Part shown: positions 34,446 through 57,046 of the stretch, in pieces
How positions within the stretch are numbered: the first letter of the stretch is position 1
Layout: each line of letters opens with the position of its first letter
Source of the DNA: Mesorhizobium sp. J428
GTDB taxonomy: Bacteria; Pseudomonadota; Alphaproteobacteria; Rhizobiales; Rhizobiaceae
Direction: 5' to 3'
NCBI RefSeq assembly: GCF_024699925.1
Contig: NZ_JAJOMX010000001.1
Location: forward strand, 2,456,001 to 2,520,000
DNA: 64,000 nucleotides
Notes under the pieces: model-generated
Seen by the model: only the letters and a program-made list of their open reading frames with translations
Told to the model about the DNA's origin: nothing
Databases searched by the model: none
Translations under genes and position numbers: made by a program

Positions 34446-35645
34446 CTACTTCTTCGCCGTCCCGGCAAACGCGCTCGGGATCAGGTCGCCGAAGCCGCGG
34501 CTCACGCCTGTATCGACGGCCACCGTGGCGCTCATGCCGGTGCGCAGCAACAGGTCGGCGTCCTCGGACGAAACCTTGAGCCGCACGGGGATGCGCTGCG
34601 TCACCTTCACCCAGTTGCCGGTCGCGTTCTGCGCCGGCAGCAGCGAGAATTCCGCGCCGGTGCCCGCGCCGATGCTCTCGATCGTCGCCTTCAGCGGCCG
34701 GTCGGGAAAGGTGTCCAGCATCACTTCCGCTTCCTGGCCGACCTTCATATGCGTGAGCTGCGTTTCCTTGAAGTTCGCCTCGACCCATGTGTCGCCGGTC
34801 TCGACCAGCGTGAACAGCGAGGTGCCGGCCGTCACGAACTGGCCGAGCTTGAAGGAAGACGCCTGGCTCACCGTGCCGTCTGCCGGCGCGCGCACCGTCG
34901 TCTGCGCCAGCTGGTAGGCCGCCTTGTCGCGCGCGGCGAAGGCGGCGAGCACCGCCGGATGCTTGTCGGTTACGATGTTCGGATCTCCGCCAAGAGCGGC
35001 AAGCGCGCTCGAGATCGATTCCGCTGCGGTGGCCGCGGCGTCCTGCGCCTTGAGCAGGTCGCGCTCCGCCGAATCCAGCGCCGCCTTGGTCGTGACGCCC
35101 TTGCCCGACAGTTCCTTCTGCCTGGCAAGCTGGTCGCTGTAGTAGGCAACGTCGCCGGCGGCGGTCTTGGCCTGCGTCTGCGCCTGCCCGTAGGCGGCGC
35201 GCAGCTGGTCGACCTGCAGGCGGGCCTGCGCCAGCGCTGCGTCGGCCTGGGCGAGCGCAATGCGATAGGGCTCCGGATCAACGGCGAACAGTACGTCGCC
35301 GGCCTTCACCTTCATGTTCTCGGCGACCCGCATGTCGACGATGCGGCCGGCCGTCTCGGAGGAGATCGTCACCCGCGCCTGGCGCAGGTTCGCATTCTCC
35401 GTCTCCTGGATGCGCCCGCCGGTGATCCAGTACCAGCCGCCGCCGGCGGCCAGCGCCAGCGGCAGGGCCAGCATGAGCAGGACCCGCCCGCCCCGGCGCG
35501 GTCTGGGCGCGGGGGCGGGCGGCGCCAGATTGATCTGAGAGGGCGTCGGCGCGGCAGGGTGCGTCGGAGCCTCGAGGTCAACCTTCACGGCGTCGTCGCC
35601 GACGCGCTGTCCATCTTCAATCTTGGTCACTGCGTTCATCGTCAT
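34446..35645 (-). CDS. HlyD/EmrA-family membrane fusion protein
   Basis: 399 residues from ATG 35645, which overlaps the MarR stop (ATGA). A cytoplasmic Pro-rich tail precedes one membrane helix (VLLMLALPLALAAGGGWYW). Then come the barrel-sandwich half motifs (ISSETAGRIVDMRVAEN, VKAGDVLFAVDPEPY), a coiled-coil hairpin of about 120 residues, and the second lipoyl half (TTVRAPADGTVSQ). It bridges the inner-membrane pump to an outer-membrane channel. The order marR-emrA-emrB is the standard operon. Confidence 0.92.
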   Translation of the reverse strand: MTMNAVTKIEDGQRVGDDAVKVDLEAPTHPAAPTPSQINLAPPAPAPRPRRGGRVLLMLALPLALAAGGGWYWITGGRIQETENANLRQARVTISSETAGRIVDMRVAENMKVKAGDVLFAVDPEPYRIALAQADAALAQARLQVDQLRAAYGQAQTQAKTAAGDVAYYSDQLARQKELSGKGVTTKAALDSAERDLLKAQDAAATAAESISSALAALGGDPNIVTDKHPAVLAAFAARDKAAYQLAQTTVRAPADGTVSQASSFKLGQFVTAGTSLFTLVETGDTWVEANFKETQLTHMKVGQEAEVMLDTFPDRPLKATIESIGAGTGAEFSLLPAQNATGNWVKVTQRIPVRLKVSSEDADLLLRTGMSATVAVDTGVSRGFGDLIPSAFAGTAKK

Positions 35646-36124
35646 GCTGCCTTTTCGCCACCGTCGGCGCAGTCCTGAGGCGTCTCGCCGTCGGAGAGAT
35701 TGTTGATGATGGCCTTCAGGCCATCGATCGTGGCCTGCCGCGCTTCCGGGGAAAGCCCGGACAGGGCCGCCTCGTAGACCTCGCCGACCATCGACTTCAC
35801 CTTGCCGTAGGCCTCGCGCGACTTGTCGGTCGGGAAGATCAGCCGCACGCGCCGGTCCGCGGCGTCGCTTCGCCGCTCGATCCAGCCGCCGTCCTCCATC
35901 CGGTCGACCAGCCGCGAGACGCTGATCGGCTCGATCTCCAGCAGTTCGGCCAGCCGCGCCTGCGGAACGCCCGGTTCCTTGGCGACGCGCACCAGCAGGC
36001 GCCATTGCGCCGCCGAAAGGCCGGAGCCGGAGGCCTTCGCCTCGAAGCGGCGGCGGATCAGCCGCGCGGCGTCGTGGATCAGGAAACCCAGCCTGTCTCT
36101 GTCTTCGTTGTTCATGAGCGGCAT
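35642..36124 (-). CDS. MarR-family regulator of the efflux operon
   Basis: 160 residues. Winged-helix core: LSAAQWRLLVRVAKEPGVPQ, RLAELLEIEPISVSRLVDRM (recognition helix) and IERRSDAADRRVRLIF (wing). Start at ATG 36124, or ATG 36115 for a protein three residues shorter. A perfect 12-base palindrome next to a TATAAT box lies just upstream, so it probably represses its own operon. It overlaps the EmrA-like gene by four bases. Such repressors release DNA when they bind lipophilic acids or drugs. Confidence 0.92.
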   Translation of the reverse strand: MPLMNNEDRDRLGFLIHDAARLIRRRFEAKASGSGLSAAQWRLLVRVAKEPGVPQARLAELLEIEPISVSRLVDRMEDGGWIERRSDAADRRVRLIFPTDKSREAYGKVKSMVGEVYEAALSGLSPEARQATIDGLKAIINNLSDGETPQDCADGGEKAA

Positions 36125-36126
36125 AT

Positions 36127-36142
36127 ATTATAAGCATGCTTA
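36127..36142 (-). promoter_or_regulatory. Promoter -10 box with overlapping MarR-type operator
   Basis: TAAGCATGCTTA at 36131-36142 is a perfect 12-base palindrome. On the minus strand it runs into TATAAT (36132-36127), a consensus -10 box, three bases from ATG 36124. Binding of the MarR dimer would block the promoter. The very short leader suggests that translation starts at ATG 36115 or on a near-leaderless message. Confidence 0.65.
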
Positions 36143-36220
36143 GGAAACAATGGGCCGAAGGGCCGATTCCGCCACGCTAATTGCGCATGGCTGCATCGCT
36201 CGGCATGCATGGCTTGCCGG

Positions 36221-36703
36221 TCAGGCGTCGTCGGTCTTTGCCGGCGGACGCCGGACCTCCAGTCGCTCTTCGACGGTGCACAGCACCTGCACCGCCGCCC
36301 GCAGCGCCGCCGGCTCGATGCCGGAGATCAGGTCTTCCCGCATCGGGTCGATGATCTTGTGGATCGCCTGCAGCCTCTCCCGGCCGGCCGGCGTCAACGA
36401 GACGATCTTCGCCCTGCGATCGGTGGAATCCTCGGCTCGCGTCACCAGCCCGTCCTCGACCAAAAGGTCCATCAGCCGCACCATCGAGGGGCCTTCCAGT
36501 CCCGCCTCTTCCGCGATCACGCCCTGCCGCGCCCGTCCGCCCAGCCGCTGCAGCGCCAGCAGCGGCGCGGCCGTCGCATGCGACAGGCCGAACTGGTCGA
36601 GTTTCTGGTTTGCAACCCGACGCCACAGCCGGCTGACGGCGAACACCAGCTCGCCGAAGGCGGCATGGTCGCTGTCAGCATGTGGATCACTCGGTTCGGA
36701 CAT
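36221..36703 (-). CDS. MarR-family transcriptional regulator
   Basis: 160 residues, a different MarR branch from the neighbour. Core: LSHATAAPLLALQRLGGRAR, VIAEEAGLEGPSMVRLMDLL (recognition helix), LVTRAEDSTDRRAKIVSLT (wing), and a C-terminal dimer helix. It lies divergent from the glucose dehydrogenase gene with 135 bases between starts, so it may control that gene (layout only). It is not coupled to the efflux operon, which has its own MarR. Confidence 0.85.
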   Translation of the reverse strand: MSEPSDPHADSDHAAFGELVFAVSRLWRRVANQKLDQFGLSHATAAPLLALQRLGGRARQGVIAEEAGLEGPSMVRLMDLLVEDGLVTRAEDSTDRRAKIVSLTPAGRERLQAIHKIIDPMREDLISGIEPAALRAAVQVLCTVEERLEVRRPPAKTDDA

Positions 36704-36838
36704 TGCCCAATGTTCATATACGATCTATTTACATGCAAGCTAAATCAGCCAGTGGCGTCGGGCCTCGTCCGCCGCCGCTTCGGGTCCGGACCCTGGCGCT
36801 CAATATGCCTCGGTCCCGCAGAGAGAACGAGGTTTTTC

Positions 36839-39328
36839 ATGTCCACATCGACATCTTCATCCGCCGGTCCGGCCCGGCAAAGGTGGGGCTGGCTGCTGAC
36901 GCTGGTCGGCATCCTGTTCGTGCTCGCCGCGCTGCCGCTCGTCTGGGGCGGTGTCCAGCTCATCTCGCTCGGCGGCTCCTGGTACTATCTGCTCGCCGGC
37001 CTCGGCGTCGCGCTGTCCGGCATCCTCATCGCCGTCCGCCGCTTCGCCGGCATCTGGCTCTATGCCCTCGTCTTCCTCGCCACCGTCGCTTGGGCGCTGT
37101 GGGAATCCGGCCTCGACTTCTGGCCGCTGGTTCCGCGCCTCGTCGCGCCCGCGGTGCTCGCCCTTATTGCCGCGCTGATCGCGCCGCTCTTCCCGTCCGC
37201 CGCGCCGCGCCCCAAGGCCCTTCCTTTCGCGGCCGCCGCCGTGCTGGTGCTCGGCCTCGCCGCCACCGGCTTCTATGCCTTCCAGCCGCACGGCGTGACC
37301 CGGACCAACTTCCAGGCCGCCGCCGGTGTCGCGCCGTCGGCCGTCACCACGGCCTCCGGCAACGACTGGGCCGCCTACGGCCGCACGCCGGCCGGCACGC
37401 GCTATGCACCGTTCGGCGAGATCACGCCGGACAACGTCAAGGACCTTGAGGTCGCCTGGACGTTCCGCACCGGCACTCCGCCGGCCAAGGGCGCGCAGGA
37501 CCAGAACACGCCGCTGCTCGTCGGCAACACGCTCTACACCTGCTCCTCGACCAACATCATCAACGCGCTCGACGCGACGACCGGCGAGAAGAAGTGGACC
37601 TATGATCCGCAGGCAAAGTCGCCGCTCTGGCAGCGCTGCCGCGGCGTCTCCTATTATGACGCTTCCGCCGCGCCCGCTCAGGCTGCAACTGGTGCGGCTG
37701 CGTCCGTGCCGATGGCCACGATGCCGCTCGGCTCGACCGACAGCGCCCAGGCGCCCGCCGCGCCCGCGCAGGCAGCCCCGGTCGCCGCCGTCTGCCCGAA
37801 GCGCATCGTCATGACCACGATCGACGCCCGCCTTATCGAAATCGACGCTGAGACCGGAGAGCCCTGCGCCGATTTCGGCGTGAACGGCGTCGTCGACCTC
37901 AAGCAGGGCATGGGCGAGGTCAAGGACGGCTTCTACTTCCAGACCTCCGCCCCCACCGTCATGCGCGACCTCGTCATGGTCGGCGGCTGGGTGTGGGACA
38001 GCGTCGAGGTCGGCGAGCCTTCGGGCGCCGTCCGCGCCTTCAATGCCCGCACCGGCGAGCTGGTCTGGGCCTGGGACCTCGGCAATCCGGCCATCACCAA
38101 GCTGCCGCCTCCCGGCGAGAGCTACACCCGCGGCACGCCGAACGTCTGGTCGACGCCTGCCTATGACGACGCGCTCGGCCTCGTCTACCTGCCCACCGGC
38201 AACGCCACCCCCGACTTCTGGGGCGGCCACCGCACCAAGGCGGCGGAAGAATACTCCGCCTCCGTCGTTGCCCTCGACATCGCCACCGGCAAGGAACGCT
38301 GGAAGTTCCAGACCGCGCACCACGACATCTGGGACTACGACGTCCCCGCCCAGCCATCGCTCTACGACGTGCCTGACGGCAAGGGCGGCACGGTTCCGGC
38401 GCTGATCCAGGTCACCAAGCGCGGCCAGATCTTCATGCTCGACCGCCGCGACGGCACGCCGATCGCCGAAGTGCAGGAAAAGCCGGTGCCGCAGGGCACC
38501 GAGGAAGGCGACTACACTGCGCCGACCCAGCCTTACTCGGTCGGCATGCCGGCGATCGGCACCGAGCCGTTCACCGAGGCCCGCATGTGGGGCGCCACGC
38601 CCTACGACCAGCTCTACTGCCGCATCGAATTCAAGAAGATGCGCTACGACGGCGAGTTCACCCCGCCGCGGCTCGACCGCAGCCTGATCTATCCGGGCTA
38701 CTACGGCGGCATGAACTGGGGTTCGGCCTCGGTCGACGAAGGCCGCGGCCTGCTCATCGTCAACGACATCCGCATGCCGCAGTTCGTGCAGCTTATCCCG
38801 CGCGAGAACGTCGACACCTATGGCCCGTCGGCAGCGCATGACGGCCTGTCGAAGCAGCTCGGCACGCCCTATGGCGTCATCAAGGCCGGCTTCTTCTCGC
38901 CGCTCAACGTGCCTTGCCACCAGCCGCCCTACGGCACGATCAGCGCCATCGACCTCGGCTCGCGCCAGCTCGTCTGGCAGATCCCGGCCGGCACGCTGCA
39001 GGACACCGGCCCGACCAACCCGCTCACCGGCGGCCTGATCAAGACCGGCCTGCAGATCCCGATCGGCATGCCCTCGCTCGGCGGCCCGATCACGACGGCC
39101 GGCGGCGTCACCTTCTACGCCGGCACGCAGGATTACTACCTGCGCGCCATCGACACGACCACCGGCGAGGAGCTCTGGAAGGGCCGCCTGCCGGTCGGCG
39201 CCCAGGCCACGCCGATGTCCTATGTCGGCGCGGACGGCCGCCAGTACGTAGTCATCTCCGCCGGCGGCGCCCGCCTGTCGCCCGACGTCGGCGACTACGT
39301 CATCGCCTACGCGCTGCCGAAGAAGTAA
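36839..39328 (+). CDS. gcd: Membrane-bound PQQ-dependent glucose dehydrogenase
   Basis: 829 residues from ATG 36839. Five N-terminal membrane helices, then an eight-bladed quinoprotein propeller: NDWAAYGRTPAGTRYAPFGE at its start, TGEKKWTYDP, FQTSAPTVMRDLVMVGG, RGTPNVWSTPAYDDALGLVY and HHDIWDYDVPAQP. It oxidises glucose (or other aldoses) to the lactone in the periplasm and reduces quinone. A low-complexity Ala/Pro-rich insertion of about 45 residues interrupts the propeller before CPKRIVMTTIDARL. No pqq genes are in the window; PQQ must come from elsewhere in the genome or outside. A terminator follows. Confidence 0.93.
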   Translation: MSTSTSSSAGPARQRWGWLLTLVGILFVLAALPLVWGGVQLISLGGSWYYLLAGLGVALSGILIAVRRFAGIWLYALVFLATVAWALWESGLDFWPLVPRLVAPAVLALIAALIAPLFPSAAPRPKALPFAAAAVLVLGLAATGFYAFQPHGVTRTNFQAAAGVAPSAVTTASGNDWAAYGRTPAGTRYAPFGEITPDNVKDLEVAWTFRTGTPPAKGAQDQNTPLLVGNTLYTCSSTNIINALDATTGEKKWTYDPQAKSPLWQRCRGVSYYDASAAPAQAATGAAASVPMATMPLGSTDSAQAPAAPAQAAPVAAVCPKRIVMTTIDARLIEIDAETGEPCADFGVNGVVDLKQGMGEVKDGFYFQTSAPTVMRDLVMVGGWVWDSVEVGEPSGAVRAFNARTGELVWAWDLGNPAITKLPPPGESYTRGTPNVWSTPAYDDALGLVYLPTGNATPDFWGGHRTKAAEEYSASVVALDIATGKERWKFQTAHHDIWDYDVPAQPSLYDVPDGKGGTVPALIQVTKRGQIFMLDRRDGTPIAEVQEKPVPQGTEEGDYTAPTQPYSVGMPAIGTEPFTEARMWGATPYDQLYCRIEFKKMRYDGEFTPPRLDRSLIYPGYYGGMNWGSASVDEGRGLLIVNDIRMPQFVQLIPRENVDTYGPSAAHDGLSKQLGTPYGVIKAGFFSPLNVPCHQPPYGTISAIDLGSRQLVWQIPAGTLQDTGPTNPLTGGLIKTGLQIPIGMPSLGGPITTAGGVTFYAGTQDYYLRAIDTTTGEELWKGRLPVGAQATPMSYVGADGRQYVVISAGGARLSPDVGDYVIAYALPKK

Positions 39329-43712: not shown

Positions 43713-44216
43713 TCACATCTTCTCGCGACCAAGGCCGATGAGGCGATCGAGCGACAGCGCGCCGCCACCGAACACGACGAGCGACAGCGCCATCGCCGCC
43801 CAAGGCAGATGGAAGTTCGCCCAGCCTTCCGGCACGGTGATCTGGATCACCGCCGTCATGGCAAGCAAGGCAAGCGCCGCAAAGCGTGTGCCCAAGCCGA
43901 GCACCAGGAGCACCGGCAGCACGATCTCGGCGATTCCCGCGCCATAGGCTGCGGCCATCGGGAACGGATAGGGATACTGCGCACCAAAGAGATGCAGCTT
44001 GAACTCCTGCCCAAACAGGTATTGCGCGCCGCCAGACAGTTGCAGGAACCCGTCCCACTTGGTCAGCCCCGATTTGTAGAAGGGAACCGCCAGCGCTAGA
44101 CGCAGCGCCAAGAGGGGCAACGCCGCCGGCACCGACGCGATCCAGCCTTCCACGCGCCGCAGGGGCGCCAGCAGTTTCCATCCGCCGTCGGATGGCGCTT
44201 CAACCATGTCCGTCAT
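43713..44216 (-). CDS. DoxX-family membrane protein of the bufferin (gig) operon
   Basis: 167 residues from ATG 44216, overlapping the upstream DUF2063 gene by 17 bases. Four helices: ALPLLALRLALAVPFYKSGL (DoxX start with KSGLTKW), AGIAEIVLPVLLVLGLG, AALALLAMTAVIQITV and WAAMALSLVVFGGGAL. DoxX proteins are integral membrane partners of redox and thiol-stress systems. In Caulobacter the same four-gene order (precursor, MNIO enzyme, DUF2063, DoxX) forms the gold-induced gig operon. Here it is the last gene of the operon. Confidence 0.85.
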   Translation of the reverse strand: MTDMVEAPSDGGWKLLAPLRRVEGWIASVPAALPLLALRLALAVPFYKSGLTKWDGFLQLSGGAQYLFGQEFKLHLFGAQYPYPFPMAAAYGAGIAEIVLPVLLVLGLGTRFAALALLAMTAVIQITVPEGWANFHLPWAAMALSLVVFGGGALSLDRLIGLGREKM

Positions 44217-44991
44217 CCTCGTCTCCCTTGTCGTTCGAAACCGTGCCTGCAAATGCGCCGAGGCCCGCCAATCCGAGCAGTGCGGCGCCGAAATCGAAAC
44301 CATCGTCGGCGGCGAGCGCCTGCGAGGCCGCTGCACCCAACGCCACGCCGTCAAGCAGGGCGGCGGCAAAGATCGCGTCGCGGTCCGGCAGGATATGGAC
44401 GCCGACCTCAAAGCTCGGCCGGACGATCAGCACCGTCTCGCCGCCCGCCGCCGAGACCGGCGCCACGACGTCCGCCTGGTGCGCCTGCCATATTGTGCCC
44501 ACGGCAAAACGCGAGCGCACCAGTGTCGCGGCCGGATGCGGCGCAAGCCGCACGTCGCCCAGCGTCTTCCCCGGCAATGCCGCCAATCGCGCGATGCCGA
44601 GCGGCGCGGCGTCTTCGGCGTGGTAGGCGCGCGTCACGGCAGCTTCCAACCGCGCGACATCGGCCAGGTAGGGCACCGACGCCACCGGCGCGAAGCCTTC
44701 GATGAAATTGGGCAAGTCGTCGCCATAGGCGAAGAGCAGCGGCAAAGCGGGCCTCGTACCGGCAATGTAGGCGCGCGCCATCAGCGCGAAGAACTCCTCG
44801 CCAACCAGCCGCTCGACGACGCGGAAGCGTGTCGCCAGCGCCTTGCGCAGGCCGACGGCGACATTGTTCCTGTAGACGGCGAAGCGCTTTTCGTCCGGCA
44901 CGCCCCGCGCGGTGGTCAGGCCCGCCGGTGGCGGCAGGGCCGGGTCCAGAATCGCCGCCGCGAAGGCTGCCTCGGTAGCCGCATGGCTCAT
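44200..44991 (-). CDS. DUF2063/BufC-type partner of the MNIO bufferin synthase
   Basis: 263 residues from ATG 44991, overlapping the BufB stop (ATGA). The N-terminal DUF2063 domain shows FAVYRNNVAVGLRKALATRF, VVERLVGEEFFALMARAYI and PYLADVARLEAAVTRAYHAED, the family core. BufC-type proteins bind the precursor peptide and present it to the MNIO enzyme. The C-terminal part (VRPSFEVGVHILPDRDAIF) is the usual second domain. Gene order and coupling support its place as third gene of the bufferin operon. Confidence 0.88.
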   Translation of the reverse strand: MSHAATEAAFAAAILDPALPPPAGLTTARGVPDEKRFAVYRNNVAVGLRKALATRFRVVERLVGEEFFALMARAYIAGTRPALPLLFAYGDDLPNFIEGFAPVASVPYLADVARLEAAVTRAYHAEDAAPLGIARLAALPGKTLGDVRLAPHPAATLVRSRFAVGTIWQAHQADVVAPVSAAGGETVLIVRPSFEVGVHILPDRDAIFAAALLDGVALGAAASQALAADDGFDFGAALLGLAGLGAFAGTVSNDKGDEDDGHG

Positions 44992-45884
44992 GCCGACGCC
45001 CTCCTCGGCAGTGTCGCAAAACCTCGCAGCTTCGCCGCCTCTGCCAGCACGGTGTCGGCGCGCCGCGCCTCGTCGTAGAGCACGTCGAAGCCCGGCACGT
45101 CGTTGTCCCATTCGATCAACGTTGCCACCGGACCGCAGCAACGGATCGCGTGGCGGTAAAGCGCAAAGACATCCTCCCTCACGCGCGAGCCGTGTGCGTC
45201 GATCAGAAGCCGCTCGCCAGCACCGTCGACCGTCTCGTCATAGCCGGCGAGGTGGATCTCGCCGACGCGCTCGACCGGGAAGCGGTCGACATAGGCGAGG
45301 GGGTCGAGCCCGTGGTTGACCGCCGAGACCATCACATTGTTGACGTCGAGCACCAGGCCGCAGCCGGTGCGTTCGGCGACGGCGTCGAGGAAGTCGATCT
45401 CGTCGATGCGGCTCTCCTCGAACAGGACATAGGTCGACGGGTTCTCCAGCAGCAATTGCCGGCCGGTCGCCTGCTGCACTTCGTCGACATGGTCGGCGAC
45501 GCGTGCCAGCGTCTCCGGCGTATAGGGCAGCGGCAGGAGGTCGTTGAGGAAGCCGGTATCGTGAGTCGACCAGGCGAGATGCTCCGAAAAGGACTGCGGC
45601 CTGTAGCGGTCGATCAGCCGGCGCAGCCGCGCCAGGTGCGCCTTGTCCAGCGGCCGCGCCGCGCCGATTGACAGGCCGACGCCGTGGAGCGAGAGCGCGT
45701 AGCGCGCGGAGAGTTCCGCCAGCATGCGATGCGGCATGCCGCCCTCGCCCATATAGTTCTCGGCATGGACTTCGAGGAAGCCGATGTCTGGCGCGGTTTC
45801 CATGATGTCCGCATAGTGCTCGGACTTGAAGCCGACGCCGGCGCGGGGCGGCAGCTTGGACGCGTGCAGGGGCTCATACGGCAT
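44988..45884 (-). CDS. DUF692 MNIO enzyme, bufferin synthase (BufB-like)
   Basis: 298 residues, a TIM-barrel multinuclear non-heme iron oxidative enzyme. Metal-site residues of the family are visible: His67 (LHGVGLS), His102 in FSEHLAW, Glu147 (LLENPSTY), Asp180 (VLDVNN), His191, His211 (EIHLAGYD), His231 (DAHGSRV) and Glu258 (IEWDND). MNIOs modify Cys residues of ribosomal peptides; for bufferins they form thiooxazole rings that bind copper. The precursor gene lies directly upstream with a hairpin between. Overlaps BufC. Confidence 0.92.
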   Translation of the reverse strand: MPYEPLHASKLPPRAGVGFKSEHYADIMETAPDIGFLEVHAENYMGEGGMPHRMLAELSARYALSLHGVGLSIGAARPLDKAHLARLRRLIDRYRPQSFSEHLAWSTHDTGFLNDLLPLPYTPETLARVADHVDEVQQATGRQLLLENPSTYVLFEESRIDEIDFLDAVAERTGCGLVLDVNNVMVSAVNHGLDPLAYVDRFPVERVGEIHLAGYDETVDGAGERLLIDAHGSRVREDVFALYRHAIRCCGPVATLIEWDNDVPGFDVLYDEARRADTVLAEAAKLRGFATLPRRASA

Positions 45885-45940
45885 TACGGATCTCGCTTCT
45901 CTTCGACGGTTCGAATCAGGCAGTCGCCCATGAGGGCTTG

Positions 45941-45978
45941 GGCGGGACCTGCGCAGTCTTGCCTGCCGGTCCCGCCCG
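45941..45978 (-). promoter_or_regulatory. Intercistronic hairpin after bufferin precursor gene
   Basis: Perfect 10-base arms GGGCGGGACC and GGTCCCGCCC enclose an 18-base loop that itself has a GCAG/CTGC pairing. The stem ends six bases after the precursor stop, within the 99-base gap to the synthase gene. There is no T tract, so it may be an attenuator or a 3' stabiliser that keeps precursor message above that of the enzymes. Confidence 0.6.
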
Positions 45979-45983
45979 AGGCG

Positions 45984-46271
45984 TCAGCCCGCCTTCGGCT
46001 CCAGCGAGCCCATATGGCCATCGACGTTCATCGACACGCAGGTGCCGGCGGGCACAGCCTTCCAGGCGTTGCCCTGGTAGTCCATGGTCGACGTGCCGGC
46101 GCAGGTGGTGCCTGCGCCCGCAGCGCAGTCGTTCTGGCCCTTCAGCGCGATGCCGTAGCACTTCTCCATGCCCACCATCTTCTCGGCGGGCAGGGGCGCC
46201 GCATGGGCGGCGGTGGCGAAGGCGCTGGCGAGCGAGCCGGCAAGGGCGAGAGCGATTGTCTGGCGGTTCAT
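45984..46271 (-). CDS. Bufferin precursor peptide, DUF2282 (BufA1/GigA-like)
   Basis: 95 residues. A cleavable signal peptide ([20 protein letters not shown], cut after AAHA) is followed by the DUF2282 core. Four Cys at 38, 49, 57 and 78 lie in [25 protein letters not shown] and VPAGTCVS, matching the BufA1 pattern of four conserved Cys. Bufferins are exported copper-buffering RiPPs whose Cys are modified by the MNIO enzyme. An ECF-type promoter element lies upstream, shared in form with the divergent sigma gene. Confidence 0.93.
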
Positions 46272-46327
46272 AGTCTACTCCTCTGGAAGTCTTGGATGGA
46301 ACGCGACATGCGCTCCATGACGGTGAC

Positions 46328-46354
46328 TTCGCCGCCACGGGCCGCCGCGTTACA
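46328..46354 (-). promoter_or_regulatory. ECF-type promoter upstream of bufferin operon
   Basis: On the minus strand TGTAAC (46354-46349) is followed after 17 bases by CGAA (46331-46328), about 55 bases from the precursor start. The same two boxes with a 16-base spacer stand before the divergent sigma gene. They resemble the GTAAC/CGAA-type elements reported for SigF in Caulobacter. Confidence 0.6.
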
Positions 46355-46419
46355 CTGCCCGCGAGCACGCTTTCGTGATGCTTGCGTGAGAAGCCCCGTG
46401 ACATTTCCTCCGCGGCCCG

Positions 46420-46446
46420 TGTAACAAATGCCGCCGCCCGACGAAG
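46420..46446 (+). promoter_or_regulatory. ECF-type promoter upstream of the sigma factor gene (autoregulation)
   Basis: TGTAAC (46420-46425), a 16-base spacer, then CGAAG (46442-46446). The likely start site is within about 10 bases of the TTG initiation codon region (46463). The shared boxes in both directions support control of both units by the same sigma factor. Confidence 0.6.
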
Positions 46447-46462
46447 ATGGGATGAGAAGGTC

Positions 46463-46990
46463 TTGACCGAAGCCGACGAAGCGGAACTCGCCCGCATGCT
46501 GCGGGCAGCGCTTTCAGGCGACGAGCAGGCCTATGCCGCATTCTTGGCGCGCGTGGCCGCGCTGGTGCGCGGCGTCACGAGACGCAATGCCGGGAGCGGC
46601 GTCGAAGTCGAGGACATCGTGCAGGAAACGCTGCTGGCCATCCATCTCAAGCGCCACACCTGGCGCCCCGACGCGCCGGTCCGCCCGTGGGTATTCGCCA
46701 TCGCCCGCTACAAGCTGGTCGACAGCTTGCGGCGCCGAGGCCGGCGGGTCGAGGTCGACATCGCCGACTACGCCGAGACGCTGGCCGAACCGGTCGAGAA
46801 CGCAGCCAGCCCGCGCGAAGTCGAGCGGGCGCTTGAGCAGTTGCCGCCCGGCCAGCGCCGGGTCGTTTCGGCGGTCAGCGTCGAGGGCCTGTCGGTCGGC
46901 GAGGCCGCCGCGGCGTTCGGCATGAACGAGACGGCCGTGCGCGTCGCGTTGCATCGCGGGCTCGCCGCCATCGCCAGAGGTCGACGCTAG
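46463..46990 (+). CDS. ECF sigma factor, SigF-like
   Basis: 175 residues from TTG 46463, preceded by AGAAGG. Region 2: FLARVAALVRGVTRR, EDIVQETLLAIHLKRHTW and RPWVFAIARYKLVDSLRRRGRR. Region 4: ALEQLPPGQRRVVSAVSVEGLSVGEAAAAFGMNETAVRVALHR, split across the usual helices. It is followed with no gap by its NrsF-type anti-sigma gene, the SigF/NrsF arrangement. An upstream ATG frame (46382) would place the promoter inside the gene, so the TTG is preferred. In Caulobacter SigF answers chromate, cadmium and copper stress. Confidence 0.88.
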   Translation: MTEADEAELARMLRAALSGDEQAYAAFLARVAALVRGVTRRNAGSGVEVEDIVQETLLAIHLKRHTWRPDAPVRPWVFAIARYKLVDSLRRRGRRVEVDIADYAETLAEPVENAASPREVERALEQLPPGQRRVVSAVSVEGLSVGEAAAAFGMNETAVRVALHRGLAAIARGRR

Positions 46991-47629
46991 ATGGACACGC
47001 AGGACCTCATTCGCGCCCTGTCGCGGGATGCCGCCGCCGGCGGTGCTCGGCTCAGCCGGCGGTTGGCCTTTGGCTTCGCGCTTGCGACCGGCCTCGCCGC
47101 CATCGTCTGGTTCGTCCTGCTTGGCCCGCGTCCGGACATCGCCGAAGCCGCCGCGACGCTGCGCTTCCCGTTCAAGTTCGTTGTGACGTTGGCGCTTGCC
47201 GGCGCGGCGGCCCTTGCCTGGCGCGCCGCCGCCCGGCCGGGAACCCCGCTCGCGCCCGCCGCCGCGCTCCTGCTCGCCGCGCCGGTGCTGCTCGCCGCGG
47301 GCGTGACAGCCGAACTGTTCGCCGTGCCCGAAGGCGCGCGGATGGCGCGGCTGATCGGCACCAACTCGACCGTCTGCCTCACCTTCATTCCGCTGATCGG
47401 CGCCCTGCCTCTGGCCGTGCTGCTCGCGGCCTTGCGCAATGGAGCGCCGACGCGGCCGACGCTTGCCGGGGCGTTCTGCGGGCTGGCGGCGGGAGGTCTC
47501 GCGGCGACGTTCTACGCCGCGCACTGCATCGACGACTCGCCGCTCTTCGTCGCCGTCTGGTACACGATCGCGATCGGCATGCTCACGCTCGCCGGCGCAC
47601 TGGCCGGCCGTCTCGTCCTGCGCTGGTAA
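46991..47629 (+). CDS. nrsF: NrsF-type membrane anti-sigma factor (DUF1109)
   Basis: 212 residues with six membrane helices. Starts MDTQDLIRALSRDAAAGG, directly after the sigma stop. Two family-conserved Cys are visible at Cys129 (GTNSTVCLTFIPLIG) and Cys179 (YAAHCIDDSPLF); a third is Cys163. In Caulobacter the two conserved Cys are needed for NrsF to release SigF under metal stress. The N terminus faces the cytoplasm to hold the sigma factor. A MITE-like element follows three bases after its stop. Confidence 0.9.
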   Translation: MDTQDLIRALSRDAAAGGARLSRRLAFGFALATGLAAIVWFVLLGPRPDIAEAAATLRFPFKFVVTLALAGAAALAWRAAARPGTPLAPAAALLLAAPVLLAAGVTAELFAVPEGARMARLIGTNSTVCLTFIPLIGALPLAVLLAALRNGAPTRPTLAGAFCGLAAGGLAATFYAAHCIDDSPLFVAVWYTIAIGMLTLAGALAGRLVLRW

Positions 47630-47631
47630 TC

Positions 47632-47785
47632 AGAGACTGCTTCGAAATTCGCTCTGGCGAGTCATATGGTGGTGGTTTCGGGGTCGCTTCAGCGACGAGC
47701 GCAGCGGACATTTGGGTCCGTGAGCACCGGAAGCGGAGAAAACGCCATCAGATGGCCGCCAGAGTAGAATTTCCAAGCAGTCTCT
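47632..47785. repeat. MITE-like element with 28-base imperfect inverted ends (nrsF-efp gap)
   Basis: AGAGACTGCTT, then GAAATTC and CTCTGGCG at the left end pair with their complements at the right end, with 3-4 mismatches or offsets. The whole 154 bases fold imperfectly on themselves, with an inner hairpin GTCGCT/AGCGAC. It fills the convergent gap exactly: three bases after the nrsF stop up to the efp stop codon. Confidence 0.7.
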
Positions 47786-49756: not shown

Positions 49757-52700
49757 TTATTCTCGGCGCGCACTCGGCGGGTCGCAGACGGAGGTCGCCC
49801 GTGCCGGCCCGAGGTTCAAACGTGCGCGCTCTGTTTCCGAGAGCGGCTGCGGCCCCAGGCGGCAGGCCAGTTCGGCGACAGAGCGGATCCCTGCGGGAAA
49901 CGGCAGCATCCGTATGGTGCCGTCGTAACCGACGATCAGCAGGCGAGCACCGTCGGGAGAAAAGGTGACGGTCTTTGGGAAAAGCCCGGCATCGAGTTCG
50001 AACTTTATCGTTCCGGTCGCGGCGTCCACGACCATCACCGGTTGCGACGCCAGCGCGATCAGTTCGCCGTCGGGACTGAACTCGGCACTTTGCGCCGGAG
50101 GCAGCGTGGCGAACGCCCGTTCAAGCGCGCCCGTGTCGGCATTCCAGATCGAGAGGTTCTCGTATGTGGTCGCGAAATAGCGGCCGTCGGGCGAAAAGGC
50201 CCGATTGTTGAGTGACCCGGCACGCCCGGCAACATTCAGGATTTCCCGCCGCGCCGCAATGTCCCACAGCTTCGTCCTGCCCTCTTGGGCGGTGGTTAGC
50301 AGCTTGGTCTCATCCGGACTGAACCCGATGCCGAGGATCCTCGATGTATGGCCCCAGAATTCCGAGATCAGCTTGCGTGAACGGGTATCCCAGACAAGAA
50401 GACGAAAAGCGTCCAGGCTTGATGTCTGCGTCGGCGCGAAGGCGAAGGCGGCAACGAACTTGCCCGACGGCGAGATGGCGGGAAAATTGATCGAATAGCC
50501 GCCCTTGGCAAGCGAAGCCTCCACCCGGCAGGCTTCCAGATCGATGATGTCGACCTTCCCCATCCTGCCGCTGGTCTCTGTCCAGCCGGGTGTGCCCTGC
50601 TGAAGCGTGACCGCCGTCCGGCCCTGCGCGTCGACGAACGAGGTGGACCCGTCGAGAAAGCCCACGCCGGCGCCCGGTAGGCGGCAGGTCGGCGTGTCCA
50701 TTCCGGGGCCGAGCAGCTCAAGGTCGTTGCCGACCAGCAGGGCTGCGGAGTTGCCGCCCAAGGCGAAGTTCCCGGTCCGCCCGTTCCTGCCAGCCTGATA
50801 GATCCGCGCGTCTTCTGCGTGACGTATCTGGAGGGCGCCGAAGCCACCCGCCCAGGTCAGCACATGCTCGTCCGCCTTGTCGAAGGAGAAAACGCCGGCC
50901 TTCCGGTAAGTGGCCTCTCCGATGGAGGTACCCTCGTCCCGGAGGACGCGCAAAGGCGTGTCGCCGCGGTCAGCCAGATCCCAGACGAAGGTTCTGTCTA
51001 GATTGTCCCTCGCGGCGACAAGGTCGCCTGCGCTGTTGAAGGCGATATCCCAGATCGCCTCGCCGACCGTGAAGCGGCGGATCAGCGCGCCATCGGCGAT
51101 GCTTCGCAGCGCCAGTACGCCATTCGTCCCACCTATGGCCAACCGCTCTGCCTTCGCGTCCATCTGCACGTCGCCGAAGCCCAGCGACGCACCTCCCTCG
51201 CCGGTGAACGTCCGCGTGAGCGAGCCGCTCTCCAGGTTCCACAGACGCGCGGCATGATCCCAGGTCAGCAATCGGTCGGCATCGAGGTAGCGCAGTCCCC
51301 GCACGCCACTCGGTCCTTCGGAATCATCCGGCGGCTCCAGCACAGTAAATGTCTTGCGAGGCTGAGGCGAGCCGACGGGGAAGAGATCCACGGTATATCG
51401 ATGCATGCCCTTGTCGGCGCTCCAGTGCGCCGACGCGACAGCAAGCTCTCCCCCATCCGGACGAAAGGCCAGAGCTTCCGGCATGGCCTGCTGGGGCAAT
51501 GCAAGTGTGGTAAGGTGCCCGGTGGCCGGCTCGAAGGTCCAGACCATCGTCCGGCGCTCGCTTCCGGATTTGAGGTCGGTTGCCAGCCCGGCTATGGCGG
51601 ACCCATCGCCATTGATCTCCACGCGCGCCGACTCTGCGCCGATCGGCCGAGCGAGAAGCTCACCTGTGGCCGCGTTGAAGAGATCGACACCGTGGGACGA
51701 GGAGCTGCGGACCACGAACCGGCCGTCGGCGCTGAAGCGGACCCACCGCTCGCCATCCCACGGCACATAGGGTTCGGCGCTCCGCATCACGACGCGGCGG
51801 CGATCTGAAAGGTCGAGCACGTAGAGGCGGCCCGTCTCGTCATGCGCGGCGATGCGCGTTCTGTCGGATGTGATGGCGAGCGGACGCTCGCTGACGTCAT
51901 CGATTGTGGTGAACCGCGGTGTGGCCGCCACCGCCTTGCGCAATGCCGTCTCCAACGCCGGCTCGACACGAATGTCCTGGCCGTCCGACTGAGCCGGCAC
52001 CCCTTCGAGCGCGACGGCAAGTGCCTTGCGAGGGTATCGTCGCGACAGAAGCTCCTCGGCGCGCGTCGCCAGCATGGACGATGTGCGCCGGGAAATCTCG
52101 GCGTCGAGACTTGCCCGCAGCGCGCACTGGCTGCCGTCCAGGCACTGCTGCGGCTCGCCGCCAAGACTGAGAACCCAAGGCAGCTGGTCACCCTTGGTGG
52201 CTCCGTTCACGCGGTCGCTGATCCTGTCGAGGAATTCGCGCACGGGCAGGCGGAGATCGCCGTCGGTCGCGTTGATGATTTCGCGCGCGAAAGGCGAATG
52301 CGCGCCCGCAGGGCCATCGGAGGCGAGTTTGCCGGCATCGGTCGAAAAGGCGACCAAGGCCCTGGATTGGGGGGCGTCGGCGGTCTCTCCGGCATACCGC
52401 TCGGCCGACCGGTCGGCAGGCGCTTCATCGGCGCTGCCTTCGGCCTCCGTGGCCTCGATGCTGCGGAATCCATAGCCCGTCGAGCGCTTGGCGTCTGCGT
52501 TGCAGTTCGCAAATGGGTTGTCGCGGCACGCATCGAAGATAAAGACCCTGTTGGCGACATGGGCTGTCGCCCGCATCAGCCGGTCGATCGATACGACGCG
52601 CCGCGCTTCCCGGTCCTCGCAGGACACCGTCCCGTCCTTCGGCACCATGACATTGGTGACGGTATCGTTTTGGACCGCTGCCATCCCGTGACCGGCGAAG

Positions 52701-53002
52701 TAGGTGACGACGAACGCTGACTCGCTCGCAGCGGCACCGAATGCCGCGATCTTCCGTTCCAGCCGCCGGTGTGTCGGATTGCGGACGAAGGTGACGTCGA
52801 ATCCGAGCCGTTTCAGGAGATTGCGGACGGCGCGGGCGTCGCGCACCGGATTGTCGAGGTCCTTGAGGTCTTTGTAATTGGAGACGCCGACGACAAGGGC
52901 AAGCCGTTGCGGGGCGGCGGCCTCGCGCGGAAAGGCCGGCAGACAGAGGATCAGCGAAACTCCGAATGCGAGCAGCATCCGTGCAAACGCCAGTTGTGCC
53001 AT
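49757..53002 (-). CDS. Secreted caspase-like (peptidase C14) protein with WD40-type propeller
   Basis: About 1081 residues from ATG 53002 (MAQLAFARMLLAFGVSLILC, a signal peptide); a TTG at 53044 would add 14 residues. Residues 32-270 are a caspase-like domain: LALVVGVSNYKDLKDLDNP, catalytic His105 in TYFAGHGMA and Cys159 in FIFDACRDNPF. From about 370 to the end run WD40-like repeats, for example RTKLWDIAARRE, LSIWNADTGALERAF and AEFSPDGELIALAS. Bacterial caspase-like proteins of this type cleave after Arg/Lys or act in signalling; targets are unknown. Stands alone between epmA (convergent) and a TetR gene. Confidence 0.88.
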   Translation of the reverse strand: MAQLAFARMLLAFGVSLILCLPAFPREAAAPQRLALVVGVSNYKDLKDLDNPVRDARAVRNLLKRLGFDVTFVRNPTHRRLERKIAAFGAAASESAFVVTYFAGHGMAAVQNDTVTNVMVPKDGTVSCEDREARRVVSIDRLMRATAHVANRVFIFDACRDNPFANCNADAKRSTGYGFRSIEATEAEGSADEAPADRSAERYAGETADAPQSRALVAFSTDAGKLASDGPAGAHSPFAREIINATDGDLRLPVREFLDRISDRVNGATKGDQLPWVLSLGGEPQQCLDGSQCALRASLDAEISRRTSSMLATRAEELLSRRYPRKALAVALEGVPAQSDGQDIRVEPALETALRKAVAATPRFTTIDDVSERPLAITSDRTRIAAHDETGRLYVLDLSDRRRVVMRSAEPYVPWDGERWVRFSADGRFVVRSSSSHGVDLFNAATGELLARPIGAESARVEINGDGSAIAGLATDLKSGSERRTMVWTFEPATGHLTTLALPQQAMPEALAFRPDGGELAVASAHWSADKGMHRYTVDLFPVGSPQPRKTFTVLEPPDDSEGPSGVRGLRYLDADRLLTWDHAARLWNLESGSLTRTFTGEGGASLGFGDVQMDAKAERLAIGGTNGVLALRSIADGALIRRFTVGEAIWDIAFNSAGDLVAARDNLDRTFVWDLADRGDTPLRVLRDEGTSIGEATYRKAGVFSFDKADEHVLTWAGGFGALQIRHAEDARIYQAGRNGRTGNFALGGNSAALLVGNDLELLGPGMDTPTCRLPGAGVGFLDGSTSFVDAQGRTAVTLQQGTPGWTETSGRMGKVDIIDLEACRVEASLAKGGYSINFPAISPSGKFVAAFAFAPTQTSSLDAFRLLVWDTRSRKLISEFWGHTSRILGIGFSPDETKLLTTAQEGRTKLWDIAARREILNVAGRAGSLNNRAFSPDGRYFATTYENLSIWNADTGALERAFATLPPAQSAEFSPDGELIALASQPVMVVDAATGTIKFELDAGLFPKTVTFSPDGARLLIVGYDGTIRMLPFPAGIRSVAELACRLGPQPLSETERARLNLGPARATSVCDPPSARRE

Positions 53003-53149
53003 GCGCCGCGATCCGCCTCCTGCCTGGAGCCAGGCTCGCAGCAAACTTCAGCATATTCAAGGCGAGGGTCTGAAGATCCTGGCCGACATGCACTGAACCC
53101 GGCTTCTCGCTCGCCCCGCCGCACCGGTGGTGCAGCTCTGAGGGTCGCC

Positions 53150-53800: not shown

Positions 53801-53857
53801 TTTAGTCTGCTGCGCTTGTCCGGTCAAGCGCCTGCCTCTGTCCGAAGGTGCACAACC

Positions 53858-56800
53858 ATGGCCCAAGACACAATGACTCCCCGGATTCCCCAGCCGCCGC
53901 TGCGGCCCTTCATCGGCAACCTGCCCGAGCTCGACACCGACGCGCCTGTGCAGAGCCTGATGCGGCTCGCCCGCACATACGGCCCGTTCTTCCGCATGCG
54001 CATCCTCGACCGCACCTTCTACGTCACCAGCTCCCAGGAGCTGGTCAACGAGCTCTGCGACGAGAGCCGCTTCAACAAGCGCGTCCACCCGCCGCTCAAG
54101 GAAATCCGCGCCTTCGCCGGCGACGGCCTGTTCACCGCTTACAACAGCGAGCCCAACTGGGCGAAGGCCCACCGGCTTCTGATGCCCGCCTTCGGGCCGA
54201 TCGGCGTGCGGTCCATGTTCGACCGCATGCTCGACATCGCCGACCAGATGTTCGTCCGCTGGGAGCGCTTCGGTCCCGCCGCCTCGATCGACGTCGCCGA
54301 CAACATGACGCGGCTCACCCTCGATACGATTGCGCTCTGCGCTTTCGACTACCGCTTCAACAGCTTCTACCGCGACGAGATGCACCCCTTCGTCGGCGCC
54401 ATGGTCGGCGCCCTGTCGGAATCCGGCCAGCGCGCCCGCCGGCCGAAGCTGATGACCAGCCTGATGCTGTCCACCGCCCGCCGCTTCGACAGCGACGCGG
54501 CCCTCATGCGCTCGGTCGCGCAGGAGCTGATCGCCGAGCGCCGCCGCGATCCAAACGGCGCCGACAAGCACGACTTGCTCAACATCATGCTCAACGGCGT
54601 CGACCCCGTCACCGGCGAGAAGCTCGACGACGAGAACATCGGCTATCAGATGATCACTTTCCTGATCGCCGGCCACGAGACCACCAGCGGCCTGCTCTCC
54701 TTCGCCACCTACCTTCTGCTGAAGAACCCTGAAGTCCTGGCCAAGGCCCGCGCGGTGGTCGACGAGGTGCTGGGCGACGAGATGCCCCGCGTCGAGCACC
54801 TGGCCCAGCTGCGCTACATCGAGCAGGTCCTGATGGAGAGCCTGCGCATCTGGCCGACGGCGTCCGTCTTCGCTGTCAAGCCGCACGAGGCCACGCTGCT
54901 CGCCGGCAAGTATCCGCTCACGCCCGACGACAGCGTCATGATCCTGGAGCCGATGCTCCACCGCGACCCCGCCGTCTGGGGCGACGATGCCGAAGCCTTC
55001 ATCCCCGAGCGCTTCGCCCCGGAAAACGCCGAAAAGCTGCCGCCCAATGCCTGGAAGCCGTTCGGCAACGGCGCACGCGCCTGCATCGGCCGGCCCTTCG
55101 CCATGCAGGAGGCGCAGCTCGTGCTCGCCATGATGCTGCAGCGCTTCGACATCGCCTTCGACGACCCGTCCTACCAGCTGAAGATCCACGAGACGCTGAC
55201 CATCAAGCCGGAAGGCCTGCGCATCCGCGCCCGCTCGCGCCGCTCTGCCCAGGCGCTGGTGCGCGCGCCCTCGCTCGCCGCGCCGCAGAAGACGCTGGTG
55301 CCCGCCGCGCCCGCGCCGCTGCGCGAGGGCGAGGCCGCCACCGCGCTGCTTGTCCTCTACGGCTCCAACACCGGCTCCTCGGAAGCCTTCGCCAACCGCG
55401 TCGCTGCCGACGCGCCGTCCTACGGCTTCGCACCCACGGTGGCGCCGATGGACGACTACGCCGGCCGCCTGCCGAAGGAGGGCGCGGTCGTCGTCGTCAC
55501 CGCCTCCTACGAAGGCCAGCCGCCGGACAATGCCCGCCGTTTCGTCGCCGATGTCGAGGCGCTCGCGTCCGGCTCCCTCGAAGACCTGCCCTTCGCCGTG
55601 TTCGGCTGCGGCAACCGCCAGTGGGCGCGCACCTTCCAGGCGATCCCCAAGCGCGTCGACGCGGCACTGGAAAAGGCCGGCGGCTGGCGCATCGCCCCAC
55701 GCGGCGAGGCCGATTCCGGCGGCGACTTCTTCGGCGCCTTCGACGAATGGTATGCCGCGTTCTGGCCGGCGCTTTCCGCCGCCTTCGGCCGGCAGGCCGC
55801 CGCGCCCGAAGCGCCGGCGGGACTCCATCTCGATTTCGTCAAGGCCGGCCGCGAAAGCACATTGAGGCTCGGCGACCTCAAGCAGGGCGTCGTGGTCGAG
55901 AACCGCGAGCTGGTCGACATGGCAGCTGCCGGCGCCCGCTCCAAGCGCCACATCGAGTTCGCCCTGCCCGAGGGCATGACCTATCGCGCCGGCGACTATC
56001 TCGCGGTGCTCGCCCGCAATCCGGACGCGCTGGTCGATCGCGTGCTGCGCCGCTTCGGCCTTTCCTCCGACACTCTGGTGGTCATCGACCGCGCCACCGG
56101 CTCCACCGGCCTGCCCGTCGGCCATCCGGTCAGCTGCGGCGAGCTGCTCGCCAACTATGTCGAGCTCGCCCAGCCGGCCACCCGCGCCCAGGTGGCGGCG
56201 CTCGCCGCGGCCACCCGCTGCCCGCCGGAGAAGAAGGAGCTGGAGGCGCTCGCCGCCGACGGCTACGAGAACGAGGTGCTCGGCCGCCGCTTCAGCGTCA
56301 TCGACCTGCTCGACCGCTTCCAGTCCTGCCCGATCGATTTCGCCCGCTTCCTCGACATGCTGCCGCCGATGAAGGCGCGGCAATATTCCATCTCGTCCTC
56401 GCCGCTGTGGAACCCGGCCAACGCCACGCTCACCATCGCCGTGGTCGACGCGCCGGCGATGTCAGGCGTCGGCCGCTACCAGGGCGTCGCCTCCTCCTAT
56501 CTCGCCGGGCTCGAACCCGGCGACCGCGTCTCCATCGCCGTGCGCCCCTCCAATGCGCGCTTCCATCCGCCGGCCGACCCGAAGACGCCGCTGGTGATGA
56601 TCTGCGCCGGCTCCGGCCTCGCCCCCTTCCGCGGCTTCCTGCAGGAGCGCGCCGCGCAGAAGACCGCCGGCCAGGAGGTCGGGCCGGCGCTCCTGTTCTT
56701 CGGCACAAACCATCCCGACGTCGACTACCTCTACCGCGACGAGCTCGCGGCCTGGCAGCGCGACGGCGTCGTCACCGTCCTGCCCGCCTTCTCCGATGCG

Positions 56801-57046
56801 CCGGAGGGCGACATCCGCTTCGTCCAGCACCGCGTCTGGTCCGACCGCGCCCTGATCGCCGACCTCTTCCGCCAGGGCGGCACAGTCTTCGTCTGCGGCG
56901 ACGGCAGGCACATGGCGCCCGCCGTGCGCGAAACCCTGGTCAAGATCTACCGCGACGCCACCGGCGCCTCGGCAGAAGACGCCGACACCTGGGCCGACGC
57001 GATCGAGCGCGACCACGGGAGATATGTGGCGGATGTTTTCGCGTGA
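53858..57046 (+). CDS. Self-sufficient cytochrome P450/NADPH-P450 reductase (CYP102/BM3-like)
   Basis: 1062 residues, full fusion. P450 part: GDGLFTAYNSEPNW (BM3-like loop with Phe92), oxygen-binding AGHETTS (271-277), ExxR (E327-R330) and heme loop FGNGARACIGRPF (Cys409). FMN domain from about 490 (VLYGSNTGSSEAFANRV, TASYEGQPPDNA). FAD/NADPH reductase: ARQYSISSSP, SSYLAGLEPGD, ICAGSGLAPFRGFLQERA and VFVCGDGRHMAPAV. CYP102 enzymes hydroxylate fatty acids near the omega end. The start at ATG 53858 has a GAAGG site. Regulated probably by the divergent TetR. Confidence 0.95.
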   Translation: MAQDTMTPRIPQPPLRPFIGNLPELDTDAPVQSLMRLARTYGPFFRMRILDRTFYVTSSQELVNELCDESRFNKRVHPPLKEIRAFAGDGLFTAYNSEPNWAKAHRLLMPAFGPIGVRSMFDRMLDIADQMFVRWERFGPAASIDVADNMTRLTLDTIALCAFDYRFNSFYRDEMHPFVGAMVGALSESGQRARRPKLMTSLMLSTARRFDSDAALMRSVAQELIAERRRDPNGADKHDLLNIMLNGVDPVTGEKLDDENIGYQMITFLIAGHETTSGLLSFATYLLLKNPEVLAKARAVVDEVLGDEMPRVEHLAQLRYIEQVLMESLRIWPTASVFAVKPHEATLLAGKYPLTPDDSVMILEPMLHRDPAVWGDDAEAFIPERFAPENAEKLPPNAWKPFGNGARACIGRPFAMQEAQLVLAMMLQRFDIAFDDPSYQLKIHETLTIKPEGLRIRARSRRSAQALVRAPSLAAPQKTLVPAAPAPLREGEAATALLVLYGSNTGSSEAFANRVAADAPSYGFAPTVAPMDDYAGRLPKEGAVVVVTASYEGQPPDNARRFVADVEALASGSLEDLPFAVFGCGNRQWARTFQAIPKRVDAALEKAGGWRIAPRGEADSGGDFFGAFDEWYAAFWPALSAAFGRQAAAPEAPAGLHLDFVKAGRESTLRLGDLKQGVVVENRELVDMAAAGARSKRHIEFALPEGMTYRAGDYLAVLARNPDALVDRVLRRFGLSSDTLVVIDRATGSTGLPVGHPVSCGELLANYVELAQPATRAQVAALAAATRCPPEKKELEALAADGYENEVLGRRFSVIDLLDRFQSCPIDFARFLDMLPPMKARQYSISSSPLWNPANATLTIAVVDAPAMSGVGRYQGVASSYLAGLEPGDRVSIAVRPSNARFHPPADPKTPLVMICAGSGLAPFRGFLQERAAQKTAGQEVGPALLFFGTNHPDVDYLYRDELAAWQRDGVVTVLPAFSDAPEGDIRFVQHRVWSDRALIADLFRQGGTVFVCGDGRHMAPAVRETLVKIYRDATGASAEDADTWADAIERDHGRYVADVFA

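Follow-up and report, generated by a model that had tools for sequence, protein, structure and literature searches.

A SigF-associated Buf1 bufferin locus in Mesorhizobium sp. J428 and the hairpin that follows its precursor gene

The locus described here lies in a window of 64,000 nucleotides from Mesorhizobium sp. J428 (the window is the whole stretch of DNA that was analysed, and all positions are counted within it). It combines a bufferin-type peptide operon with a sigma and anti-sigma pair. The operon is on the reverse strand and starts with bufA (45984..46271), which encodes a DUF2282 (Buf1) precursor of 95 amino acids (PF10048, 88.8 bits). The bufA gene is followed by bufB (44988..45884), which encodes an MNIO/DUF692 bufferin maturase of 298 amino acids (PF05114, 345.1 bits), and by bufC (44200..44991), which encodes a DUF2063 (PME type 1) partner of 263 amino acids (PF09836, 77.6 bits, residues 11-101 of the translated stretch). 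The operon is closed by doxX (43713..44216), which encodes a DoxX-family membrane protein of 167 amino acids (PF07681, 65.9 bits). The forward strand carries sigF (46463..46990), which encodes an ECF16-type sigma factor of 175 amino acids from a probable TTG start (PF08281, 52.7 bits; PF04542, 45.6 bits), and nrsF (46991..47629), which encodes an NrsF/DUF1109 membrane anti-sigma factor of 212 amino acids (PF06532, 179.5 bits). Very probably, the locus is a Buf1 bufferin (captophorin) operon controlled by an ECF16 switch of its own.

Genes and promoter boxes of the locus

The six genes had been named in an earlier sequence-only reading of this DNA, and all of them are found in place by open reading frames and Pfam domains. 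All six reading frames are intact and all six proteins score above their Pfam cut-offs. The gene order bufABC-doxX is that of Buf1 bufferin clusters, with overlaps of ATGA between bufB and bufC (44988-44991) and of 17 nucleotides between bufC and doxX. The sigF and nrsF genes are divergent from the operon and directly adjacent to each other. BufB passes the cut-off of the NCBIfam model NF050167 MNIO_BufB, described as 'MNIO family bufferin maturase' (374.3 bits against 310). A sequence search of solved structures with BufB gave eight distinct matches, which are DUF692 and MbnB proteins (best 3bww, E 2.6e-43). The nearest named relatives of BufB among the matches listed are two Mesorhizobium sp. 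metagenome-assembled genomes (92-93% identity). The length of BufC and its PF09836 match fit a DUF2063 PME-type 1 partner (about 250-260 amino acids). A sequence search of the PDB gave no relevant match for the RRE half of BufC, and the protein length fits an RRE-type partner. No second PF10048, PF05114 or PF09836 match was found by profile search of the genome (5.88 Mb, 5 contigs), and the second NrsF match is weak (22 bits, below the cut-off, G000:C1:4348175-4348546).

The motif GTAACN-N15-16-CGAA has two matches in the window where 0.22 are expected, and two matches were reached in 1 of 100 shuffles. Both matches sit between bufA and sigF, and each unit has one of them facing it. The box of bufA (GTAACG-N16-CGAA, 46328..46353, reverse strand) is located 82 nucleotides upstream of the bufA ATG, and the box of sigF-nrsF (GTAACA-N15-CGAA, 46421..46445, forward strand) is present in the sigF direction in all six genus relatives (L064-L069). 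Published systems are cited here and below from excerpts of the papers. The SigF motif of Caulobacter has been given as GTAACC-N16-CGAA (PMC3511200), and the ECF16 consensus has been quoted as (T/C)GTAAC-N17-CGAA (PMC8315932). Both boxes agree with the ECF16 consensus, the one at sigF being shorter by one base. The position of the sigF box places the start of sigF downstream of it and not at the mechanical reading frame start of 46382. The start is most likely the TTG at 46463, which is kept in the close relatives L065, L066, L068, and L069. The bufferin-type locus with SigF and NrsF that the sequence-only reading had proposed is supported in sequence by the precursor type, the maturase model, the PME type 1 partner, DoxX, and SigF boxes facing both units.

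Two extensions of this regulon were tried and rejected. A wider SigF regulon could not be drawn from the motif, which is not enriched in the genome. In addition, 28 of the 30 genome matches examined (of 44 in total) overlap an open reading frame of at least 120 amino acids, a test that cannot separate promoters from chance since the two boxes of the locus also fall in mechanical reading frames. MsrP-like PF00174 genes were also dismissed as SigF targets, as no box was found within about 1.5 kb on each side of the two PF00174 genes of this genome.

Conservation and distribution among relatives

A total of 121 genomes, including that of the window, were searched. DUF2282 is present in 74 of them, including all six other searched members of the genus, and NrsF is present in 38 (36 above the family cut-off). 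We compared 121 loci, which comprise 41 region loci (the window and 40 regions, each from a different one of the 73 DUF2282-positive genomes other than its own) and 80 named loci (the 80 top-ranking matches listed in a scan of named records).

BufA has exactly four cysteines (positions 38, 49, 57, and 78), the positions that the sequence-only reading had listed. Each of them is invariant in all 121 loci compared, among which are 5 duplicates and the window. The N-terminal 24 residues of BufA look by eye like a Sec signal peptide (charged start, hydrophobic core, and A-H-A end). BufB has H67, H102, E147, D180, H211, D229, H231, and E258, which we take to be iron ligands, each retained in at least 120 of the 121 loci. 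One locus of the set (L084, genome G073) encodes a Buf1 precursor with six cysteines, the extra two near the C-terminus, and has sigF-nrsF about 10 kb away.

The decay or silence of the locus in this genome is highly improbable. No point in its favour was found, the reading frames are unbroken as described, the cysteines and active-site-like residues are kept, and the same locus occurs in all six other genus genomes searched (best protein matches 54-98% identical). One of these loci (L067) is cut by a contig end inside nrsF.

The anti-sigma factor NrsF of the window has cysteines at positions 129, 163, and 179. C129 and C179 are invariant in 74/74 aligned sequences, and C163 occurs in 10 of the 74. 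The replacement of C131/C181 in NrsF of C. crescentus releases SigF (PMC3511200). The pair C129/C179 has the same spacing as this pair, as compared through papers and without alignment. In two genus relatives, sigF and nrsF are parted by an element (L068 7227-7578 and L069 5004-5277, reverse strand), unlike the window where the sigF stop directly adjoins the start of nrsF. The element has inverted ends (by eye), is about 275-350 bp long, and may uncouple the dosage of sigma from that of anti-sigma.

In 77 of the 121 loci, sigF is divergent from bufA and at most 1 kb away (19/41 region loci and 58/80 named loci; these counts take in the window and 5 duplicates). The other 22 named loci have no adjacent sigF; 21 of their genomes were examined, and NrsF is encoded in 14 of them (only 89 bits in L149). 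All 11 of these genomes with a bufA box encode NrsF, while among the 10 that lack a box NrsF is encoded in 3 and missing from 7. The box was then counted across the loci after 5 duplicates and one locus without an examined genome had been removed. In 88 of the remaining loci the genome bears NrsF, and 72 of these have the bufA box; in the other 27 the genome has no NrsF, and none of them has the box (permuted motifs: means of 0.45 and 0.11, maxima of 36 and 3). Of the 72 boxes, 42 are located 79-83 nucleotides upstream of the assumed bufA start. The bufB tree (114 loci) shows only 5 changes of NrsF state, and a Fisher value for this association is not readable as a probability because the independent changes are so few. 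The association as a test of independent contrasts was also set aside since the pairs are too few for significance.

Twelve loci keep the SigF box while sigF is not adjacent and NrsF is encoded elsewhere in the genome (L086 of G077, L117, L120, L128, L131, L132, L135, L154, L155, L159, L174, and L182). In these loci the operon and its regulator appear to have been separated with the promoter retained. A further group, which makes up 20 of the 41 region loci (L071-L075 and L087-L092 among them), consists of Buf1 operons without a SigF box in genomes without an NrsF match.

Several observations weigh against the assignment of the locus to a SigF-driven bufferin operon. The NCBIfam cut-offs are not reached for HvfX on doxX (57.6 against 80), for the HvfC equivalog, and for NF042994 (NrsF) on nrsF (92.2 against 300), and bufA has no NCBIfam match at all. 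The names of the HvfC and HvfX models derive from the oxazolin branch, and the model for NrsF may be a narrow one. The motif GTAACV-N14-17-CGAA has 44 matches in the genome against 104 for the reversed pattern. One permuted motif matched 36 of the 88 NrsF-bearing loci. The strict box is missing in 16 of these 88, and 7 of the 16 have the variant GTAAC...CGTA between -72 and -94. Only 3 supported independent pairs were obtained from the tree, of which about 2 run as expected and none in reverse, and the sign test is not significant.

The hairpin between bufA and bufB

The bufA and bufB genes are separated by a gap of 99 nucleotides that opens with a strong RNA hairpin (45940..45977, reverse strand) located 6 nucleotides past the bufA stop. 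The 64-nucleotide stretch with the hairpin folds at -39.1 kcal/mol (z -3.95). We compared 102 related gaps of at least 45 nucleotides with control stretches of the same length. A perfect stem of at least 8 is present in 67/102 gaps against 5.2 expected from gap shuffles, and the same stem is present in 5/102 stretches upstream of bufA, 4/102 bufA 3' ends, and 0/102 bufB 5' ends. The contrast is milder for folding energy, where z is below -2 in 64/102 gaps, 28/102 upstream stretches, 8/102 bufA 3' ends, and 3/102 bufB 5' ends. Among the 67 stems, 63 different sequences were found, and 58 of the stems start at most 30 nucleotides from the bufA stop. The hairpin after bufA is conserved in position and not in sequence. 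The remaining 35 of the 102 gaps have no stem of at least 8.

An intrinsic terminator after bufA was considered and rejected. The hairpin has no T tract, which makes an ordinary intrinsic terminator unlikely, and a consensus scan finds none there. We infer that the hairpin stabilises a short bufA mRNA or partly terminates transcription. As a general proposal for Buf1 loci of Hyphomicrobiales, a dedicated hairpin behind the precursor gene, kept in place and shape while its sequence is repeatedly rebuilt, could stabilise the transcript or stop it in part, and a single SigF promoter would then give far more precursor than enzyme. We put this proposal forward tentatively, at slightly less than even chances. 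The alternative is that the hairpins are intergenic repeats of a general kind. If the proposal is true, the hairpin would be a simple and testable account of separate precursor and enzyme levels in these operons. The bufA hairpin is not mentioned in PMC12452194 or PMC8224329 and no precedent was found for it, with the original description of bufferins (Leprevost et al.) outside the scope of this comparison.

Proposed function and comparison with known systems

The genes, their order, the boxes, and the invariant cysteines are observed at the locus itself, while the metal, the modification, the disulfide, and the copper binding in the following scheme are taken from characterised relatives. At rest, the membrane protein NrsF would hold SigF. 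Metal stress in the periplasm, most likely excess copper, would be sensed through Cys129 and Cys179 of NrsF and SigF would be freed. The freed SigF would transcribe bufABC-doxX and sigF-nrsF from the two divergent GTAAC-N-CGAA promoters. The iron enzyme BufB would receive the precursor from BufC and convert the central Cys49 and Cys57 to 5-thiooxazoles. The peptide would leave by Sec, the Cys38-Cys78 disulfide would form, and the mature peptide of 71 residues would bind periplasmic copper. The hairpin after bufA may hold the precursor mRNA above the enzyme mRNA.

The sequence-only reading had presented the precursor as a good test case for which cysteines are modified. That question has largely been answered in print for Buf1, where DUF2282 peptides with four cysteines have the central two modified and the first and last joined by a disulfide (PMC12452194), and bufferins have been grouped among the 5-thiooxazole captophorins (PMC13097082). 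The Buf1 peptide for which the thiooxazoles, the disulfide, and copper binding are known is that of C. vibrioides (PMC12452194). By homology to Buf1 with its published chemistry, the prediction for BufA is thiooxazoles at C49 and C57 and a disulfide between C38 and C78. Buf1 clusters are also described with sigma and anti-sigma genes, and Buf2 clusters without them, in the excerpted account (PMC12452194).

The sequence-only reading had also named metals to try as inducers, and these fare differently. Copper finds support, as it induces the SigF regulon of Caulobacter and a sigF::Tn5 mutant is copper-sensitive (PMC8224329). Cadmium and chromium are weaker candidates; both induce the SigF regulon in Caulobacter (PMC3511200), but the orthologous promoter fusions of S. 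meliloti are reported as unresponsive to cadmium, chromate, and H2O2 (PMC6180224). The silence of these orthologues also counts against the scheme, for it leaves the signal in rhizobia unproven. Copper thus appears the better candidate for the inducer than cadmium or chromium.

Oxidants such as peroxide or hypochlorous acid might be the signal instead of a metal, with a redox or thiol function for the peptide. Other ECF16 systems respond to reactive oxygen or chlorine and control methionine sulfoxide reductases (PMC8315932), and a Caulobacter sigF mutant is reportedly impaired in stationary-phase oxidative stress resistance (PMC8224329). However, the two PF00174 molybdopterin-oxidoreductase genes of this genome have no SigF box within the flanks searched, the S. 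meliloti orthologue is described as silent to H2O2 (PMC6180224), and the Caulobacter SigF targets are described as not induced by reactive oxygen species (PMC3511200) but induced by copper (PMC8224329), so that we consider an oxidant signal unlikely. It is a little less likely still that the main metal of the operon is not copper but another soft one (Au, Ag, Cd, or Hg). The gig operon of Cupriavidus is induced by Au, Ag, and Cu without effect on copper resistance (PMC8224329), and MerC-bufferin fusions exist (PMC12452194). On the opposing side, no metal-resistance gene directly adjoins the locus, and copper function has been demonstrated, in relatives only. The Buf1 operon with excess copper as its most likely signal is retained as the preferred explanation.

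The direct neighbours of the locus are a family-5 ABC binding protein gene, with a best NCBIfam match of NikA type (100.1 bits against a cut-off of 393), and efp. A palindromic repeat element of about 154 bp is located between nrsF and efp (47632-47785). It has 19-nucleotide inverted ends (95% complementary), a DNA fold z of -7.7, and 10 copies of full or nearly full length in the genome, this one included (86-100% identical), and it looks like a non-coding miniature repeat. Its similarity to the element inserted in L068 and L069 is at most 9 nucleotides. Elsewhere the window encodes a HlyD/CusB-type membrane fusion protein (34446-36137, reverse strand) divergent from a PQQ-dependent dehydrogenase-like protein (36209-39328, forward strand, frame of 1039 amino acids), a protein of 1095 amino acids with an N-terminal caspase-like domain (Peptidase_C14) and C-terminal WD40/beta-propeller repeats (49757-53044, reverse strand), and a cytochrome P450-reductase fusion of 1076 amino acids with P450, flavodoxin, and FAD/NAD domains (53816-57046, forward strand).

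The findings in this work confirm a complete SigF-driven bufferin locus in a Mesorhizobium-like genome, and at the level of sequence they support the view that the sigma pair goes with the peptide operon. The gene set is a standard one that has already been described, and the locus brings no new chemistry and no new type of system. The locus can be likened to the EGKCG-type captophorins (fontiphorin, oxazolin, and gonophorin), where an MNIO enzyme and a DUF2063 partner make 5-thiooxazoles (PMC13097082). Those captophorins have repeat-motif precursors, whereas the precursor here is a DUF2282 protein and the Hvf-type NCBIfam cut-offs are not reached.

The closest published loci are those of Caulobacter and S. 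meliloti. Caulobacter crescentus (vibrioides), as compared through papers, has the same six families in the same order, with sigF-nrsF beside the operon CC3254-CC3257. The comparison of gene order that the sequence-only reading had suggested accordingly gives the same order, orientation, and families as CC3252-CC3257 (PMC3511200). Caulobacter has in addition a second SigF-driven DUF2282/DUF692/DUF2063 operon, CC2907-2905 (PMC3511200; PMC8224329), whereas the genome here has a single DUF2282/MNIO locus. The Caulobacter regulon also has a sulfite-oxidase/MsrP-type target, unlike this genome with its PF00174 genes lacking a nearby SigF box. In S. meliloti, the ECF16 pair rpoE7-ecfR7 is divergent from the four-gene operon SMb20527-SMb20530, as here, a likeness that follows the published description and not a comparison of sequences (PMC6180224). 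The same paper treats that operon as an orthologue of CC3254-CC3257 and places ECF16 motifs ahead of both units (PMC6180224).

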